This document shows, piece by piece, positions 24,487 to 38,034 of a stretch of DNA of 51,207 nucleotides (positions within the stretch are counted from its first letter, which is position 1; the number at the start of each line of letters is the position of its first letter). The notes under the pieces are model-generated. The model did not search any database. It saw only the letters and a list, made by a program, of their open reading frames with translations, and was not told the DNA's origin. The stretch covers positions 1 through 51,207 of the forward strand of contig NZ_FOLC01000030.1 in NCBI RefSeq assembly GCF_900112135.1. Reading direction: 5' to 3'. Source of the stretch: Collimonas sp. OK412 (lineage in GTDB: Bacteria; Pseudomonadota; Gammaproteobacteria; Burkholderiales; Burkholderiaceae_D). A program made the position numbers and the translations under genes.

Positions 24487-25194
24487 TCAAACGCGCGTGA
24501 ACACCAGGTCCCAGACGCCATGTCCAAGACGCAAGCCGCGGTTCTCGAACTTGGTCACCGGCCGGTACTCCGGCCGTTCCGCGTAAGTCTCGGCGGTATT
24601 CTTCAGCAGCGGCTCGGCGCTCAATACTTCCAGCATCTGTTCAGCATACTCCTGCCAGTCGGTCGCGCAATGCAGGTAGCCGCCCGGCGCGATGCGCGAG
24701 GCCAGCAGGCTGACCAGCGGCCCCTGGATCAGGCGGCGCTTGTTGTGCCGCGCCTTGTGCCAGGGATCGGGAAAAAACACATGCGCCCCGGCCAGCGAGC
24801 CGGGAGCGATCATGTTGGTCAGCACTTCCACCGCATCATGCTGGACCAGGAGCAAATTGCCCAGCTGCTGCTCGCCGATCAGCTTCAGCAGGCTGCCGAC
24901 GCCGGGCGTATGGACTTCGACCCCAAGGAAATTCTTTTCCGGCATGCCGGCGGCAATCTTGGCCGAGGTTTCACCCATGCCGAAGCCGATTTCCAGGATG
25001 GTCGGCGCATTGCGCCCGAAAACCTGGCCGAGGTCGACCACGGCCTTGTCGTAAGGCACGCAAAAACGCGGCCCCAATTCTTCGATGGCCCGCGCCTGCG
25101 CCGTCGACAAGCGCCCGGCGCGCGTGACAAAACTGCGGATCCGGTGTTCGGTCGGATCGTAAAAAAGGGGTTTGCCGGATTTGTTTTCTGACAT
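24487..25194 (-). CDS. trmB: tRNA (guanine-N7)-methyltransferase TrmB
   Basis: 235 residues from [14 protein letters not shown]. Methylates G46 in the tRNA variable loop using S-adenosylmethionine. The Rossmann SAM motif [16 protein letters not shown], the central [18 protein letters not shown] signature and the C-terminal TKFENRG...WDLVFTR are typical. The frame is open upstream to 25290, with another ATG at 25236; none of these starts has a good ribosome binding site, so the start is chosen by family length. It lies 138 bp downstream of tRNA-Gly(CCC). Confidence 0.94.
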
Positions 25195-25332
25195 GCTTGA
25201 TAGACGGTTAGGGTGAGGCGGGCGCTCAATTGCCATGCAACTGCCATGGACCATGGCGTCATTGTAACGCCAGGCAATCGATCGCCTCAAAAATACAAAT
25301 GGCGCCCGGAGATGCTGGCGCCAACGCTGGTC

Positions 25333-25406
25333 TGGAGCGGGTAGAGGGGATCGAACCCTCGTCTAAAGCTTGGGAAGCTTTCGTTCTACCATTGAACTAC
25401 ACCCGC
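25333..25406 (-). tRNA. tRNA-Gly (anticodon CCC)
   Basis: 74 nt including an encoded CCA. Acceptor stem GCGGGTG pairs with TACCCGC. The D arm contains AGTTCAATGGTAGAA, the anticodon arm is AAAGC-TTCCCAA-GCTTT with CCC at 34-36, and the T arm GAGGG-TTCGATC-CCCTC is canonical. Reads GGG codons. The first 40 or so bases are duplicated exactly at 27065-27106, which marks this as an integration site. Confidence 0.97.
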
Positions 25407-25408
25407 GA
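25367..25408. repeat. Direct repeat, left copy (att-like, in tRNA-Gly)
   Basis: 42 bases identical to 27065-27106, running from the anticodon stem to two bases beyond the tRNA 5' end. Sequence on both sides differs, so the repeat edges are sharp. Confidence 0.9.
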
Positions 25409-27064
25409 AGCCCATATTCTAAGCCATTTCTTCTTTGAATTTCTGACAATTTCGCTCCGCAAAATTGCGGATTGCTCTGTAAATCGACTCTATAGGTCTC
25501 ACAACATTGTCTTTGTTAAGAAGACTTCGATTTCTATCATTGAAAGCTATCCCGCGAAATCGTCTTTCACACCAATCATGTTTTCATTAGCATTAATAGT
25601 AGTTAGCTCTACGCGCTTTGCATCAAGCGCATTACCAAATCTCAATTGTTTGCTCAAAAACATTCCCGTTTTCTGAGTGACTAGCCTTCACATGAATTCG
25701 CGATGGGACAAAGCTTGTACCTTTGTATTCTGGTTGCACATTCAAATTATTAATGAGCCCATCTTTTAATGATTTGGCTAAGGAGCTCGTGACTTGATGC
25801 TTGATTTCAACCGCGCCGGCTGGGACATACACGGTGTTTGGGAGAACATCTTGACCTCCAAACTCAGCCGGGAAAAGTAAGATTTTGACTAGTTTCCCCT
25901 CTGCTGCCAAATTCATCATCGCGTCACGCGAGTTGATATCAGAAAAGTCCAAAGCTGGATCAATCGCCGAGGTTTGTTTAGCATTGGGAGAGGTGATCTC
26001 AGTGGAGGTAACGACCGAATTTCGATTCAGAATACTGAACTGCCCGATTTCGGCAGCACTAAGAGCATTCAGTAATGCATCACGGCCGTTTTGCATTGAC
26101 CATTGCATTTCATCGTCGGTTATCACCGTGGCAACGAGAAGTTCCAGCGCGCCATTGGGAAGGTCCGCAGTGGCGGCTAGGGGAGCTTTGGCCTTTGAGA
26201 TTAATATATTGACTGAAGATCGATCTCCAACTTGAATTTTTTCAATCGTAAGCCCTTGATATTTTTCTACCCTACCAAGAAGATCTGCATCGCGCAGTAG
26301 CTCGGCCTTTACAGCCCACTGGAGTAACCAAAGAGGCCATTCGGCTTTCTCCTTCGTCACTACCATGATTTCGTATCCGTAACCTGGTCTATCAGAAGCT
26401 GGCCGAATATTATCTTTTTTGTTGAGTGTGCTTTGTGTTCGCACGATGCGTTTACCGTCGCTTTCCGTTTTCAGGTCGGTAACGGTAATGTCTGTTGGCA
26501 TGTCAGGATTGGATAGGCCAAATGTCGTATAAACCATAGCGCCATCTCCAAACTTATTTGCGGGAATCGCAAATAGGCCACCACCTGGCCAAACGCCAAA
26601 TAGATCTCCGAGTTTTAGAATGTCTTGCGGTAATTCACCAAAATTTTCTTCAAAAATTTTTACTCTAGCGTCGTATACTTGCTGCCATAAAATACTGGCA
26701 GATTCGTCGACAGATTTGACATCCGCCGATATTTTTTCTTCCGCTGTCGTGCGCTCAGACAAATCTGCTTGTTTACCAAACAAGCGACTAAAGATGCCCA
26801 TCCGATTTTCCTTGGGTTAGAGCTTCAAAAAAATTATTGAAAAACTTAGATTCAAGTTCTGAGGGACGGAATATAAGTCACTCGGGACTCTTGTGAACGA
26901 CGCTTTCCGTTTGTTGCCATGCAGCTATTATAAAGGCGATGCCAAAGCTGCTCCGCAAAAATATTTGGATAGACGCAATTATGGGGATGCACGGGGATAG
27001 AATTTTGTCTTTTTGCGGAGCGGAAATCGGCTGTAAAGCCGCACCACACATGGAAAACTAGATG
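25409..27064. mobile_element. Small AT-rich integrated element at tRNA-Gly
   Basis: 1656 bp bounded by the 42-bp repeats. Visibly richer in A and T than the flanks, and carrying one gene, the SUFU-domain protein. No integrase, excisionase or replication gene is present, so it is either a remnant of a larger island or a satellite mobilised in trans. 25409-25631 and 26802-27064 have no supported gene. Confidence 0.65.
25632..26801 (-). CDS. Suppressor-of-fused (SUFU) domain protein, possible immunity protein
   Basis: 389 residues. From about 40 to 265 it matches bacterial SUFU-domain proteins: FGELPQDILKLGDLFGVWPGGGLF, YTTFGLSNPDMPT, RPGYGYEIMVVTKE, WPLWLLQWAVKAELL and ELLVATVITDDEMQWSMQNGRDALL. 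The C-terminal 120 residues are an added domain I do not recognise. No signal peptide, so cytoplasmic. Bacterial SUFU proteins have been linked to polymorphic-toxin immunity by comparative genomics, but no toxin is adjacent here. AAGGAAA precedes the ATG. The base composition is unlike its neighbours, and it is the only gene of the tRNA-Gly element. Confidence 0.8.
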   Translation of the reverse strand: MGIFSRLFGKQADLSERTTAEEKISADVKSVDESASILWQQVYDARVKIFEENFGELPQDILKLGDLFGVWPGGGLFAIPANKFGDGAMVYTTFGLSNPDMPTDITVTDLKTESDGKRIVRTQSTLNKKDNIRPASDRPGYGYEIMVVTKEKAEWPLWLLQWAVKAELLRDADLLGRVEKYQGLTIEKIQVGDRSSVNILISKAKAPLAATADLPNGALELLVATVITDDEMQWSMQNGRDALLNALSAAEIGQFSILNRNSVVTSTEITSPNAKQTSAIDPALDFSDINSRDAMMNLAAEGKLVKILLFPAEFGGQDVLPNTVYVPAGAVEIKHQVTSSLAKSLKDGLINNLNVQPEYKGTSFVPSRIHVKASHSENGNVFEQTIEIW

Positions 27065-27106
27065 AGCTTGGGAAGCTTTCGTTCTACCATTGAACTACAC
27101 CCGCGA
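27065..27106 (-). pseudogene. 5' half of tRNA-Gly(CCC), right copy of direct repeat
   Basis: Exact copy of the tRNA-Gly 5' half ending in the 3' side of the anticodon stem; the variable, T and 3' acceptor parts are absent. On the minus strand it is preceded by a promoter-like TTGCAA (27138-27143), 18 bp, TAAAAT (27114-27119), which is better than anything seen upstream of the intact copy. This suggests that this end is the original 5' flank. Confidence 0.8.
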
Positions 27107-27235
27107 TACCCGCATTTTACGCGGGATTTGACGGGGTTTGCAAACTTGAAAGATGTTTGATGGGATGGGGAATGTGATGGCCGACCATCCCTTCGCATAA
27201 ACGGAGATCGGCATGGGCTATTTGCGTCATGGTAC

Positions 27236-28117
27236 TCAAACACGCTGAGAGAGCGTCGTCACGAAGAAATCAGTTACCAGCCGCACACGGGCAGGTACAA
27301 ACCTACGCTTTGGCCAGACGAGGCTGACGTCTCTGGCTTCATTCAGAAACCGGTCGAGTACAGTAATGATGTCTGGATGCTGGAGTTCGTCGACCAACGA
27401 CGCCCGGGAAAACATGCCAATGCCCACACCGGCAAGCACCCCGGAAAGAATCGTTTCCATACTATTGGATGAAAGATTGCCGCTCACTGGCACGGTGAAT
27501 TCTCCTTTTGGGCCGACAAAAGCCCAATTCGTCATCTCGTTGTAGACAAGACAATTGTGATTGACAAGATCGTCCGGGACAGTGGGCGCCCCGTGCCGAT
27601 CAAAATAACGGCGAGACCCGACACATGCCAATGAAGTGCCCGTCACTCGTTTGACCACAGCATCCGGATCGTGCACCGGACCGACTCTAACCGCCAAATC
27701 AATCCCGTCCGCAAGCAAATCCCGGACGCTGTCCGAAAGACCAAGGTCCAACTTGATCTTCGGATGAAGTGACAACAATTGTGGGATGAGCGGAAGGACA
27801 TGAAGCCGGCCGAATGTGGAGGGTGCCGCGATCCTGACGAGACCGGAGACCTCCAGGGTGCTGCTGGTTAGCTCTCCGTCGGCTTCGTTCACCTCCTCAA
27901 GAAGCGGCTTGATACGGTCATAGTATTTCCGCCCTTGCTCGGTCAGCGTCACGCTGCGCGTGCTCCTATTGAATAGCAGCACACCGAGCCGCTTTTCCAA
28001 TGCACTGATGGATTTGCTCATTCCAGATTGTGAATCGTGAAGCCGGCGCGCGGCAGCGGAAAAACCACCCGCTTCTACGACCGTGATAAAAGCGGTCAAC
28101 TCATGAAATCGATCCAT
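27236..28117 (-). CDS. LysR-family transcriptional regulator
   Basis: 293 residues. N-terminal winged HTH (MDRFHELTAFITVVEAGGFS, HDSQSGMSKSISALEKRLGV, FNRSTRSVTLTEQGRKYYDR) and a substrate-binding domain of the CrgA/DmlR-like kind (GLVRIAAPSTFGRLHVLPLI, DLAVRVGPVHDPDAVVKRV). GAGGAAA ribosome binding site. It is divergent from an SDR gene, with a palindrome of T-N11-A type between them (28201-28219). The usual inference is that it controls that SDR and itself. Effector unknown. Confidence 0.93.
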   Translation of the reverse strand: MDRFHELTAFITVVEAGGFSAAARRLHDSQSGMSKSISALEKRLGVLLFNRSTRSVTLTEQGRKYYDRIKPLLEEVNEADGELTSSTLEVSGLVRIAAPSTFGRLHVLPLIPQLLSLHPKIKLDLGLSDSVRDLLADGIDLAVRVGPVHDPDAVVKRVTGTSLACVGSRRYFDRHGAPTVPDDLVNHNCLVYNEMTNWAFVGPKGEFTVPVSGNLSSNSMETILSGVLAGVGIGMFSRASLVDELQHPDIITVLDRFLNEARDVSLVWPKRRFVPARVRLVTDFFVTTLSQRV

Positions 28118-28200
28118 TGCGTTTCCTCGGCGAGCTCAGTGCGGCTCGCATGAACCCTGTCAGAAATCAGCTGCGCAACCTCCGCAACAGGCACATCGAC

Positions 28201-28219
28201 CTATTCTTTTTAAGAATAG
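28201..28219. promoter_or_regulatory. Palindromic LysR-type operator candidate
   Basis: CTATTCTT-TTT-AAGAATAG, a perfect 8-bp inverted repeat containing TTCTTTTTAAGAA, which fits the T-N11-A rule for LysR boxes. It lies 84 bp upstream of the lysR start. The rest of 28118-28471 has a short plus-strand open frame (28249-28461) without start signals, which I do not accept as a gene. Confidence 0.6.
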
Positions 28220-28471
28220 TACTATGAAATATTTGCTCATTATCAATCTTGATCAATCAAATTAGTATGGATGCGTTCCTGATCGACCGGCCGGATAGTG
28301 GCAATAGCGAACATGGCGACACGTTTGAACGAAACAGGGCGTCACAGCGGCCCAGAGCCATTTCGCAACTTGAAACCTTGGTGGACGGAACGACGCTGAT
28401 CGAGTTTTGGCCGCTATGTAACGGCGATTCTTCGGTCTATAACGAAACTACTGACCAATAGGACTAGAGCT

Positions 28472-29245
28472 ATGAGCACAGCAACGAATGTTCGAGAACA
28501 ACCGTCACCGCCCTTACTGAGCCTTTCAGGAAAAAAGGTGGTGGTGGTCGGCGGAAAAACGGGAATCGGCCTTGGAATTGCGCGCGCGGCGTATGCAGCG
28601 GGTGCGTCCGTGACGGTCGCTAGTCGGCGTATCACCTCGGTGGAGGAACGCCCAGATCTGGCTAATTTCGAACAAGTGACCTTGGATATTTGCGATGAGG
28701 CAGCAGTGAGAGAGGCCTTTGACGGCATAGGACCATTCGACCATCTCGCCGTCACGGCAGGGCCCGACCTGGGGACCTGGGGGACTTTCATGGACGACGA
28801 TATGCGCGGCGTTCGAAGCTATATCGAAAATAAGTTCTTGGGCAGTTGGGCCTGTGCGCGTTATGCAGCGCCCCACCTGAGAGCCGGCGGCTCGATTACC
28901 TTCCTTACAGGTGGCACGGGAGCGCGACCAAAAGTCGGCTTCAGCGCTGTCACTTCGGCGTTTGTCGCAGTGGAGTCCTTATCGGGCTCACTCGCACTCG
29001 AACTGGCGCCTACCCGTGTAAACACGATACGTCCAGGCTATGTCGACACAGACTTGTGGCGCGTTATGTCCGATAACGAGCGCGAGGCCTTGAGAGCAAA
29101 AGTACGTGAGACCTTTCCGGCGCGACACGCGGGCACGGCGGATGATATTGGACACGCCGCGCTGTTCCTGATGACCAACCCCTATGTAACCGGCACCGTC
29201 ATCGAGGTATCCGGTGGTGAGAACCTGGTTCCGAGCGTTTTCTAA
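28472..29245 (+). CDS. Atypical short-chain dehydrogenase/reductase (SDR)
   Basis: 257 residues. Rossmann fold with the dinucleotide motif VVGGKTGIGLGIARAA in place of TGxxxGIG, DHLAVTAGPDLGTWG near the usual NNAG, and the late RVNTIRPGYVDTDLW and VTGTVIEVSGGE. The catalytic YxxxK is not visible: the position reads GFSAVTSAFVAVESL, with Phe and Thr where Tyr and Lys are expected. Related SDRs with this change are known to me as a recurrent group, so it is probably ancestral rather than a recent mutation, but classical oxidoreductase chemistry is doubtful. Probably controlled by the divergent LysR gene. Confidence 0.88.
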   Translation: MSTATNVREQPSPPLLSLSGKKVVVVGGKTGIGLGIARAAYAAGASVTVASRRITSVEERPDLANFEQVTLDICDEAAVREAFDGIGPFDHLAVTAGPDLGTWGTFMDDDMRGVRSYIENKFLGSWACARYAAPHLRAGGSITFLTGGTGARPKVGFSAVTSAFVAVESLSGSLALELAPTRVNTIRPGYVDTDLWRVMSDNEREALRAKVRETFPARHAGTADDIGHAALFLMTNPYVTGTVIEVSGGENLVPSVF

Positions 29246-29528
29246 CGAGCGCCACGGCTTCTTTAGCTCCGGTAAACGAAGATCTGCGGCCCTATCGATA
29301 GCGGACAGGGCCGCTTTGCGGATAACAGTAGACGTTCGCTCGGACAATTCGACGGACCGCTTTGGTCGAAGAGACGACATCTGCGTTAGCACTCGAACGA
29401 CCGCATTTGTGAGCGGAGCGATCGCTGGAATGTCTGCTGCCCGTAGCTGTTTAGTTTAGGGTTTGTGAATGCCAATAATCTTACAATCGATACCATTACA
29501 ATGACTGATGCTGGCTTCATTCTTGCAT

Positions 29529-30720: not shown

Positions 30721-31026
30721 TCAGCGATTTGTTGAAGATGTCTGAAAGAAATTGCCAAGGATGCCTACAAATTTCACATGCCGAGTCCCCAGGTTCGAAT
30801 CGTAAGTGCTAAACAGAACATAGTTATTCCTCACCGTGCTGCTGGCTATGAAGCTGCTAGCCACCCCGCCAAATAGCGTTCCCAGTGTCCGCGTCACGTC
30901 ATCCCGTTTGTCGGCTTCCTGGGTGATTATTTGATGAATGTGTTGTTCATAGCTGTCCAGCTTGGGGTTTGTGAACGCCAGCAGCCCTACAATCGATAGC
31001 ACTATGATGGTTGGGGATAGTTTCAT
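30721..31026 (-). CDS. DUF4359-like small secreted/membrane protein
   Basis: 101 residues. A hydrophobic N-terminus (LSPTIIVLSIVGLLAFT) is followed by NPKLDSYEQHIHQII, the arrangement of DUF4359 proteins, and a second mildly hydrophobic stretch (TLFGGVASSFIASS). It ends with VKFVGILGNFF. Probably an inner-membrane-anchored protein with a periplasmic domain. GAGAAG precedes the ATG. It lies 36 bp after the SRPBCC gene in the same direction and may be cotranscribed. Function unknown. Confidence 0.65.
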   Translation of the reverse strand: MKLSPTIIVLSIVGLLAFTNPKLDSYEQHIHQIITQEADKRDDVTRTLGTLFGGVASSFIASSTVRNNYVLFSTYDSNLGTRHVKFVGILGNFFQTSSTNR

Positions 31027-31062
31027 TCTTCTCGGTCAAAAAATATAAATTCAATGTGGCTT

Positions 31063-32070: not shown

Positions 32071-32580
32071 TCACCTCACGGCATACAGTTCGCTGACAAT
32101 TTTCCAGCGCCCCTGGACTTTCAGCAACTGCAGGATTTTCCAGCCTTGGGTACTCTCGCCGGATTCGACGAGCGTCGTTTCAAAGTCTAAAGACACCTGG
32201 GCCAGATCGCCGTTTTGTTCAATCCTGATATTCGAAATTTTTTGACTATATTTTTTACCGCTCTCGAAGACCGCCTTCCGAAATCCTGCATAACCTTGCA
32301 AACTTTGCGAAATGGGCTTGAATGACGGACTTAATTTTTCCCCAAGGCCGAAGAAAGGTATTTTCTCGTCCAACAGCTGGGATTCGAAAAGCGCGCGGTC
32401 TCCAGTCGTCACGCTCTTGGCATAGTTATCCAAAACTTCCTGGATCTGTCGTTGGCTCTCTTTACTCGGAATATGGTCGGTTTTTCCGTTCAATGATGGA
32501 AGTTCTTCGCCCAGCGCAATCGACAAATATGCGTTCCAGTTATCGGCTTTGCTAAAGACTGAGGCGGCCAAATCACGCAA
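32071..32580 (-). pseudogene. NTF2-like secreted protein paralog, 5' end replaced by IS21 remnant
   Basis: From EELPSLNGK onward it is about 95 percent identical to the product of 37382-37903, including GDRALFESQLLDEKIPFFGLG, SLQGYAGFRKAVFESGKKYS and GRWKIVSELY. The first 24 residues, MRDLAASVFSKADNWNAYLS and so on, are the antisense of an IS21 istA fragment. They replace the signal peptide found in the other copy. Without signal peptide and native promoter it is probably non-functional, though the frame is open. The fold looks like the SnoaL/DUF4440 (NTF2-like) group. Confidence 0.75.
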
Positions 32581-37263: not shown

Positions 37264-37391
37264 GTGAGTGATGCAGTACAAATTTATCTTGTCTTTCTTG
37301 TGGCGCAATAAGTAGGGTCAGTTCATGACCCCCTGCCATCGACGGCCCAGGTTGAAATAGCACCCGGTTCATCACCATGGCTCATCTCACG
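37264..37391. repeat. Duplicated segment, copy B
   Basis: Counterpart of 30470-30596. It contains GGGTCAGTTCATGACCCC and runs into the 3' end of the NTF2-like gene, whose stop codon is at 37382. Confidence 0.75.
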
Positions 37392-37903
37392 GTGTACAGT
37401 TCGCTGACAATTTTCCAGCGCCCCTGAACCTTCAGCAACTGCAGGATTTTCCAGCCTTGCGCACTCTCGCCGGATTCGACGAGAGTCGTTTCAAAGTCTA
37501 AAGACACCTGGGCCAGATCGCCGTCTTGTTCAATCCTGATATTCGAAATTTTTTGACTGTATTTTTTACCGCTCTCGAAGACCGCCTTCCGAAATCCGGC
37601 ATAACCTTGCAAACTCTGCGAGATGGGCTTGAATGACGGACTTATTTTTTCTCCGAGTCCGAAGAAAGGTATTTTCTCGTCCAGCAGCTGGGATTCGAAA
37701 AGCGCGCGGTCTCCAGTCGTCACGCTCTTGGCATAGTTATCCAAAACTTCCTGGATTTGTTTTCGGCTATCTTCGTTCGGCATATGACCGGTTTTTCCGT
37801 TCAACGACGGCAGTTCTTCCGCCATTGCCGGGTGGCCAAGCGGTGAAAGTGCGAAGAGGGCGATGACAAGTGCGTAGCGGCTGAATGTGGTCATGGCTGA
37901 CAT
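37382..37903 (-). CDS. Secreted NTF2-like (SnoaL/DUF4440 group) protein
   Basis: About 173 residues from MSAMTTFSRYALVIALFALS; other in-frame ATGs at 37894 and 37927 are possible, and no start has a strong ribosome binding site. A signal peptide ends PAMA|EELP. The mature part begins with a linker, then a helix IQEVLDNYAKSVTTGDRALF, a middle stretch rich in Phe and Gly, and strands NIRIEQDGDLAQVSLDFETTL and GRWKIVSELYTVR, the shape of an NTF2-like cone. Periplasmic or secreted; ligand unknown. This is the intact member of the duplicated pair; the other copy (32071-32580) has lost its signal peptide. Confidence 0.75.
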   Translation of the reverse strand: MSAMTTFSRYALVIALFALSPLGHPAMAEELPSLNGKTGHMPNEDSRKQIQEVLDNYAKSVTTGDRALFESQLLDEKIPFFGLGEKISPSFKPISQSLQGYAGFRKAVFESGKKYSQKISNIRIEQDGDLAQVSLDFETTLVESGESAQGWKILQLLKVQGRWKIVSELYTVR

Positions 37904-38034
37904 GGTTGGGAGCGGGATTATTTGCATGGGGCGAATCTTGATCCGCTTGCAGAATATCCCGGATTTCGTCATCGCACACGGGAGACCGCCAAATGCGCGC
38001 CGTTTGAATTTTCCAGGCGCGCATTTGTTACGCC

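Follow-up and report, generated by a model that had tools for sequence, protein, structure and literature searches.

What kind of event leaves a bacterial tRNA gene with a second copy of its 5' half, and not of its 3' half, a short distance upstream? The question is raised by the tRNA-Gly(CCC) locus of the soil bacterium Collimonas sp. OK412, which was analysed within a stretch of 51,207 nucleotides (hereafter the window). In the passages of a review that bear on this point (PMC8371274), rebuilt bacterial tRNA genes are said to retain their original promoter with very few exceptions, and restoration of the 5' half is called typical of archaeal pTN3-like integrases and seldom met in bacteria, with Williams 2002 cited for the rare bacterial cases. 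Being so described there, 5'-half restoration is treated here as a known but rare kind.

A small insert bracketed by a duplicated tRNA 5' half

ARAGORN and Rfam each find one tRNA in the window, in both cases Gly(CCC) on the minus strand, and part of it recurs upstream:

25333..25406, minus strand: intact tRNA-Gly(CCC) (ARAGORN; Rfam gives 25336-25406)
25367..25408, minus strand: element-side copy of the 42-bp repeat (attR side)
27065..27106, minus strand: orphan 5' half of tRNA-Gly(CCC) (attL side), with 0/40 mismatches against the intact copy

The initial annotation had described an exact 42-bp direct repeat around the insert, and the two 42-mers are indeed identical; they lie 1,698 bp apart start to start, with 1,656 bp separating them. 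Since the repeat covers the first 40 nt of the tRNA, plus two leader bases, it is also right that the 5' half and not the 3' half is repeated. Orphan and intact copy share 90% identity across 58 nt, and in the aligned elements discussed below this identity stops at or near the anticodon stem-loop, AAAGC-TTCCCAA-GCTTT, the presumed crossover core. The repeat is beyond chance, as it equals the 5' part of a tRNA and extra 5' halves are found in four of the 12 other congeners with an intact tRNA. A displaced fragment in direct orientation and the intact tRNA bracket the insert, as in tRNA-targeted elements; the 3'-half duplication with a retained host promoter that marks classic islands is absent. 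The working tRNA-Gly(CCC) is taken to combine an element-supplied 5' half with the original 3' half. The GGG codon is readable by wobble, and loss of tRNA-Gly(CCC) may be tolerable because tRNA-Gly(TCC) is also encoded in the strain's own genome.

With a GC content of 0.441 against 0.582 for the whole window, and one long gene, the insert is the AT-rich, single-gene segment that had been noted. Its gene and the flanking features are:

24487..25290, minus strand: trmB-like methyltransferase gene, the conserved flank behind the tRNA 3' end
25632..26801, minus strand: cargo gene with a SUFU domain (PF05076), 389 aa, 32.4 bits against a cut-off of 25
27226..29284, no strand assigned: LysR/SDR gene pair beyond the insert, sharing 97.6% identity with cargo of the 5'-half element in congener G005

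SUFU domains are described in part of PMC3482391 as immunity proteins of polymorphic toxins, and the protein in the insert is possibly one of these; it has no match in PADLOC and none in 14 congeners. Searches by tblastn (E<=0.1) with six integrases of the family described below (family 1) and with a second integrase (integrase 2) find no integrase in the window, in agreement with the earlier remark that the insert has none, and a search of the insert for an integrase remnant also found nothing. A C-terminus-like reading just upstream of the right end was dropped, as its frames disagree between the window and G013. The strain's own genome has two weak partial matches to a family-1 integrase and no intact one. 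Because the insert holds neither an integrase nor a remnant, its membership in an element family rests on its ends, and we call it a relic of, and not a member of, the tRNA-targeted tyrosine-integrase elements.

The LysR/SDR block stands beside the leader of the orphan half in the window and inside a 5'-half element at the same tRNA in G005 (L047, 16679-18737). Its 97.6% identity between the two exceeds that of the tRNA-trmB backbone, about 87%, and in this difference an apparent exchange of cargo at the tRNA site is visible. Farther out, a DUF4359 gene (30741-31031, about 290 bp) recurs at 83-88% in the loci of five congeners (G003, twice, G005, G006, G013 and G014). The window also has a closely similar gene pair at 32071-32580 and 37382-37972, which we take to be NTF2-like; another version lies near the tRNA in G012.

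Ends of the insert and their arm-like sites

Both ends of the insert carry short repeats that resemble the arm sites of tyrosine integrases:

25409..25465, minus strand: right end, the S-type leader that now stands before the tRNA (GCTTAGAAT, -10-like)
25454..25463, minus strand: arm-like site TTTGCGGAGC of the right end, 57 nt before tRNA position 1
26950..26959, minus strand: arm-like site TTTGCGGAGC of the left end, at +106 after the core
27012..27021, plus strand: inverted arm-like site (on the tRNA strand it reads CTCCGCAAA), at +45 after the core
26950..27064, minus strand: left end type LE1, following the orphan 5' half (inner limit approximate)

The exact 10-mer TTTGCGGAGC has three copies in 51 kb, all within the insert; with up to one mismatch there are six in the window against 7.3 expected, and it is to this level that the chance estimate applies. 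A scan allowing one mismatch covered six LE1-like left ends (window, G005, G014 and the integrase-bearing G248, G237 and G179; that of G122 was left out), and each has the inverted CTCCGCAAA at +44/45 and the direct TTTGCGGAG at +104 to +106. Right ends have an arm-like site at -57 to -55 and/or -76/-75 in 10 of 10 cases (one mismatch allowed; TTTGTGGAG in G122), the window having one such site compared with two in G248, G237, G179 and G122. The window insert hence has arm-like repeats at set distances on both sides of the core, in register with those of G248, G237 and G179, and these TTTGCGGAG sites are putative integrase-binding sites. Both ends recur as a whole: LE1 with its 5' half is 91% identical in G014 (108 nt) and 89% in G005 (97 nt), and the S right end is nearly identical in G013 and similar to that of a Noviherbaspirillum malthae prophage.

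LE1-type ends also occur at other chromosomal loci of five congeners with no tRNA 5' half attached (L086, L087, L088, L089, L090, L091 and L093), most with the core AAGCTTCCCAAGC or a variant; their neighbours are what we take to be a tmRNA-like 3' end, a CDI-like region and a VgrG-like gene. These may be secondary-site integrations or remnants, and the reading of LE1 inserts as 5'-half elements leaves them unexplained.

Three leaders before one tRNA gene in Collimonas

Genus counts refer to 13 of 15 genomes, G001 and G004 being left out as no intact tRNA was found at the locus. In these 13 tRNA-Gly(CCC) is intact and followed by trmB, with one intact CCC gene per locus. Extra 5' halves are present in five: G000 (the window), G005, G007, G011 and G014, on a different contig from the intact tRNA in G011 and G014. 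In the other eight a whole-genome search (E<=0.01) finds none, and a scan of about 19 kb (6 kb in G002) that tolerated as many as 16 mismatches in 42 finds none either, save one 16-mismatch match in G006 at the noise limit.

Three leaders, with no evident similarity among them, precede the intact tRNA: H in seven genomes (G003, G006, G007, G008, G010, G011, G014), Q in four (G002, G005, G009, G012) and S in two (the window and G013, Collimonas humicola). A leader identity of 100% for G012 is an end-gap artefact and was left out. On a tree of the 870 bp behind the core, a marker that may itself have recombined, the leader types need six changes, and well-supported branches alone need at least four for H and at least four for Q. 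The labels do not cluster on this tree, since shuffled labels need no more changes (mean 5.4). In G002, G009, G012 and G013 the former leader seems to be gone, because a Q or S leader precedes an unbroken tRNA and there is no orphan. To judge from these comparisons, similar swaps of 5' half and promoter seem to have happened repeatedly in related bacteria.

Comparison with genomes lacking the insert had been proposed as a way to find the empty site. The expected layout, an H leader, a whole tRNA and trmB, does exist in relatives, and in G003 the leader is 90% and both tRNA halves are 100% identical to the window; genes farther upstream differ, however, and an exact pre-insertion sister strain was not among them.

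A second family of 5'-half inserts and the leader of the orphan half

Two kinds of left end follow orphan halves in the genus, LE1 (window, G005, G014) and LE2 (G007, G011), the latter also found in other genera. There LE2 and a right end resembling the H leader, both with GCCATCACA-like repeats, flank inserts of a second family (family 2). LE2 matches occur in 13 of 294 genomes and 7 of 44 genera (E<=1e-9). Start to start, the LE2 inserts measure 2.82 kb in G007, 1.09 kb in G241, 1.42 kb in G175, 2.85 kb in G239, 2.78 kb in G300 and 1.45 kb in G158, the small LE1 inserts 1.70 kb (window) and 2.54 kb (G005), and an insert in G187 about 22 kb. No integrase was found inside the small LE2 inserts by tblastn with seven integrases; the sole matches (L184) fall beyond the intact tRNA. 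Family-2 cargo includes a NERD-domain protein (G239) and a reverse transcriptase (G187), and G108 has PDC-S06 and PDC-S11 candidates, its two ends being on different contigs. PADLOC gave no match for eight of the ten cargo proteins scanned, the SUFU protein included. The tRNA-Gly(CCC) site may host defence cassettes. Cargo near family-2 ends at L222 (860-3034, 3673-4713, 5301-7301) and L182 (14323-15816) comprises PDC-S06, PDC-S11, a HATPase protein and a reverse transcriptase. That integrase 2 (389 aa) is the family-2 enzyme is only suggested: it lies inside the G187 insert, and in G011 a 73% homologue precedes the same tRNA; viral contigs yielded none.

The leader of the window's orphan half belongs to type H:

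27099..27214, minus strand: leader type H before the orphan half, with TTGCAA-18-TAAAAT at 27143-27114

The orphan half had been credited with a better promoter than the working gene. The TTGCAA-18-TAAAAT motif is present; "better" holds by consensus alone, and the leader is not simply native, as it resembles the right end of the second, older family. Against a profile built without any genus rows the window's orphan leader scores E 1.2e-17 as a whole and 1.8e-4 in its promoter-distal part. With the promoter part omitted, a profile of ten right ends from other genera matches all nine genus H leaders (E 5.8e-13 to 0.0019) and none of six Q or S leaders or five control leaders; with the promoter part included the five controls score too (E 4.7e-9 to 0.097). 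These matches weaken the idea that H is the native promoter, and they make it probable that two insertions on the 5' side, one after the other, are recorded in the window. A search for an LE2 partner farther upstream in the window found none (best E 0.22). As for the new S leader, a promoter scan found no site in it, but both G013 and the N. malthae prophage conserve its GGCTTARAATAWGGGCTT stretch, and the leader may act as a promoter.

Relatives that carry an integrase

The initial annotation suggested looking elsewhere for integrases that use this site, and candidates were found. In N. malthae CC-AFH3 (G248) a 372-aa PF00589 integrase and an intact tRNA-Gly(CCC) share a strand and lie about 90 nt apart, in the order integrase, two arm sites, leader, tRNA, with an orphan 5' half 40.7 kb off and TerL, portal and capsid genes of a prophage between orphan half and tRNA. 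G237 has the same layout at tRNA-Gly(CCC) over 40.5 kb, with the same junction in IMG/VR contig 2516493029, and G179 has it in tRNA-Arg(TCT) over 41.8 kb. In G122 a 4.6-kb contig has both ends inside a tRNA-Arg 5' half and an integrase piece of 177 aa. A pattern of an S-like leader plus tRNA start has two exact matches in genome contigs, N. malthae and C. humicola, in a search from which the window's own record may be left out. At two places inserts flank a single tRNA-Gly(CCC) on both sides, of the 5'-half kind upstream and of the 3'-half kind downstream (L179-L181 in G237; L182-L183 in G187).

Pieces of one PF00589 recombinase lie near the tRNA in five congeners, directly before the right end in G005 and G012 and upstream by about 2.6 kb in G003, 3 kb in G002 and 6.3 kb in G009, and 59 of 294 family genomes have a match to the recombinase (E<=1e-20). 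An integrase tree was made from 33 loci, leaving out fragmentary or weak loci (L100-L104, L106-L112) and places without a locus. Six are of 5' type, four at Gly (L094, L095, L120, L126) and two at Arg (L128, L129); the integrase piece of L094 is about 3 kb from the right end and its label comes from the Q end there. Thirteen are of the classic 3' type, with the tRNA within 1.3 kb on the opposite strand, nine have an orphan 3' half beside the integrase, and five (L096, L125, L127, L143, L145) have no topology label. Since ARAGORN does not call a tRNA at the nine orphan-3'-half loci, at L129 or at L130, these were judged by visual inspection. L094, L095, L120, L126 and L128 form one clade (95/94) among the 3' types, and L129 falls outside it with weak support. 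The 5'-type lineage appears to use the symmetric anticodon stem-loop in the opposite sense, and would therefore have to carry promoter and 5' half. The G248 integrase has matches in 95 free-phage records, none of which reaches 60% identity; two viral contigs were found, one of which stops at the integrase stop codon with no junction visible.

Origin of the insert

We consider it very probable that the insert is a relic of a 5'-half-restoring tyrosine-integrase element, given the repeat, the ends, the arm-like sites in register, the integrase-bearing relatives and the leader replacement in the genus. Such an element, a prophage in its intact relatives, would have integrated into tRNA-Gly(CCC) by a crossover that a tyrosine recombinase made in the anticodon stem-loop, at an exact strand-exchange point that we infer. 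In contrast to almost every other tRNA-targeting element, it would have carried promoter and 5' half at the right end, where the integrase lies, so that these came to be joined to the host 3' half in what is now the working tRNA, and the host's former leader and 5' half would have been left as the orphan at the far end. The integrase would then have been lost by internal deletion, leaving a stranded remnant. The earlier proposal that the element supplied a new 5' half, and with it a leader, accords with the leader comparison and with integrase-bearing relatives of the same architecture.

The insert might instead be a non-autonomous mini-element, a satellite-like cassette that would have integrated as a unit of about 1.7 kb with an integrase acting in trans. 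Small two-ended inserts of 1.09-2.85 kb do recur at tRNA-Gly(CCC) with both LE1 and LE2, those with LE2 yield no integrase to tblastn with seven queries, and left ends are kept though the tRNA does not need them. Yet the integrase pieces in G005, G012 and G002 are what internal deletion would leave, no small cargo is common to two genomes (a statement about the SUFU protein, searched in 14 congeners), and the strain's own genome has only two weak partial matches to a family-1 integrase, so we hold this origin to be possible though unlikely.

Improbable, in our view, is entry of the SUFU segment by homologous recombination between older tRNA halves or element ends: the LysR/SDR identity with the LE1/Q element of G005, well above the backbone, shows that cargo is exchanged at this site, but the two ends of the insert, LE1 and S, form a pair whose arms are in register. 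Lastly, an ancestral tandem tRNA-Gly pair of which one copy lost its 3' half would account for a repeat and an intact gene in tandem on one strand, and is rejected, since orphans in the genus precede two recurrent ends with arm-like motifs and not decayed 3' halves, 13 congeners have one intact CCC gene at the locus, integrase-bearing versions exist, and relatives with an ancestral pair, named at the outset as the refuting case, were not seen among the genus genomes.

Beyond the relic itself, we put forward one joint proposal, and only tentatively. In this bacterial family tRNA-Gly(CCC) might serve as a dock on whose 5' side small inserts with two unrelated types of end, most of them lacking an integrase, are taken up; each would bring a fresh promoter together with a 5' half, push older inserts outward and leave 5'-half scars. 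They would be moved in trans by prophage or resident integrases, the tRNA promoter would thus be swapped repeatedly, and the route would be that an ordinary 3'-half integrase family uses the symmetric anticodon stem-loop the other way round.

Relation to known elements

Compared with Islander-type islands and prophages, as set out in part of PMC4383910, the likeness is that a split tRNA is regenerated by an element fragment while the displaced fragment marks the far end, and that elements related to the window insert encode a PF00589 integrase. The difference is that the window-type element restores promoter and 5' half, not the 3' half, and that the window copy has no integrase and, with its 1.7 kb, falls short of the 2-kb minimum of Islander. 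Finders of this kind would miss such inserts, because by the account given there an integrase and at least 2 kb are demanded. pTN3-like archaeal integrases likewise restore a 5' half and cut the working gene off from its original promoter, according to sections of PMC8371274 and PMC5495485; their integration splits the integrase gene, whereas in G248 and G237, which are bacterial prophages, the integrase gene is unbroken and stops just short of the tRNA leader. In tRNA-dependent lysogeny (PMC10865867, in part) a tRNA gene is also disrupted and the phage must compensate, promoter included, but there a whole phage tRNA gene does so, whereas the window has one tRNA, a hybrid rebuilt at the junction. 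Also related are the classic 3'-half members at tRNA-Gly(CCC) (L124, L131, L134, L135), which share the integrase family and the target and have similar TTTGYGGA-like arms; in these, by contrast, the tRNA is on the opposite strand to the integrase, the 3' half is restored and the host leader kept. Integron gene cassettes are marked by attC sites and IntI; the ends of the window insert are tRNA halves with arms.

Contrary to the promoter-keeping rule stand the N. malthae prophage, three further elements with an integrase (one at Gly and two at Arg) and the relics in the genus. With 5'-type integrases nested in a family of 3'-half restorers, the way in which an element reverses its polarity on a tRNA becomes testable, as does whether mobile elements rewire tRNA expression. 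Our literature search, to which the older survey Williams 2002 did not belong, recognised no study of bacterial 5'-half or promoter replacement, no bacterial integrase family with both polarities and no repeated leader replacement in a genus; we claim no priority for bacterial 5'-half and promoter replacement.

Further 5'-half fragments

Some fragments fit neither end type. In G016 (L053) a pair of 5'-half fragments (56 nt, 93%), inverted relative to each other and separated by about 2.2 kb, has a third kind of sequence downstream, and G246 has a degenerate orphan 5' half. Separately, in G141 (L218) tandem 5'-half-like stretches at 372 and 1272, 900 bp apart and the first degenerate, are perhaps a short array of successive inserts.
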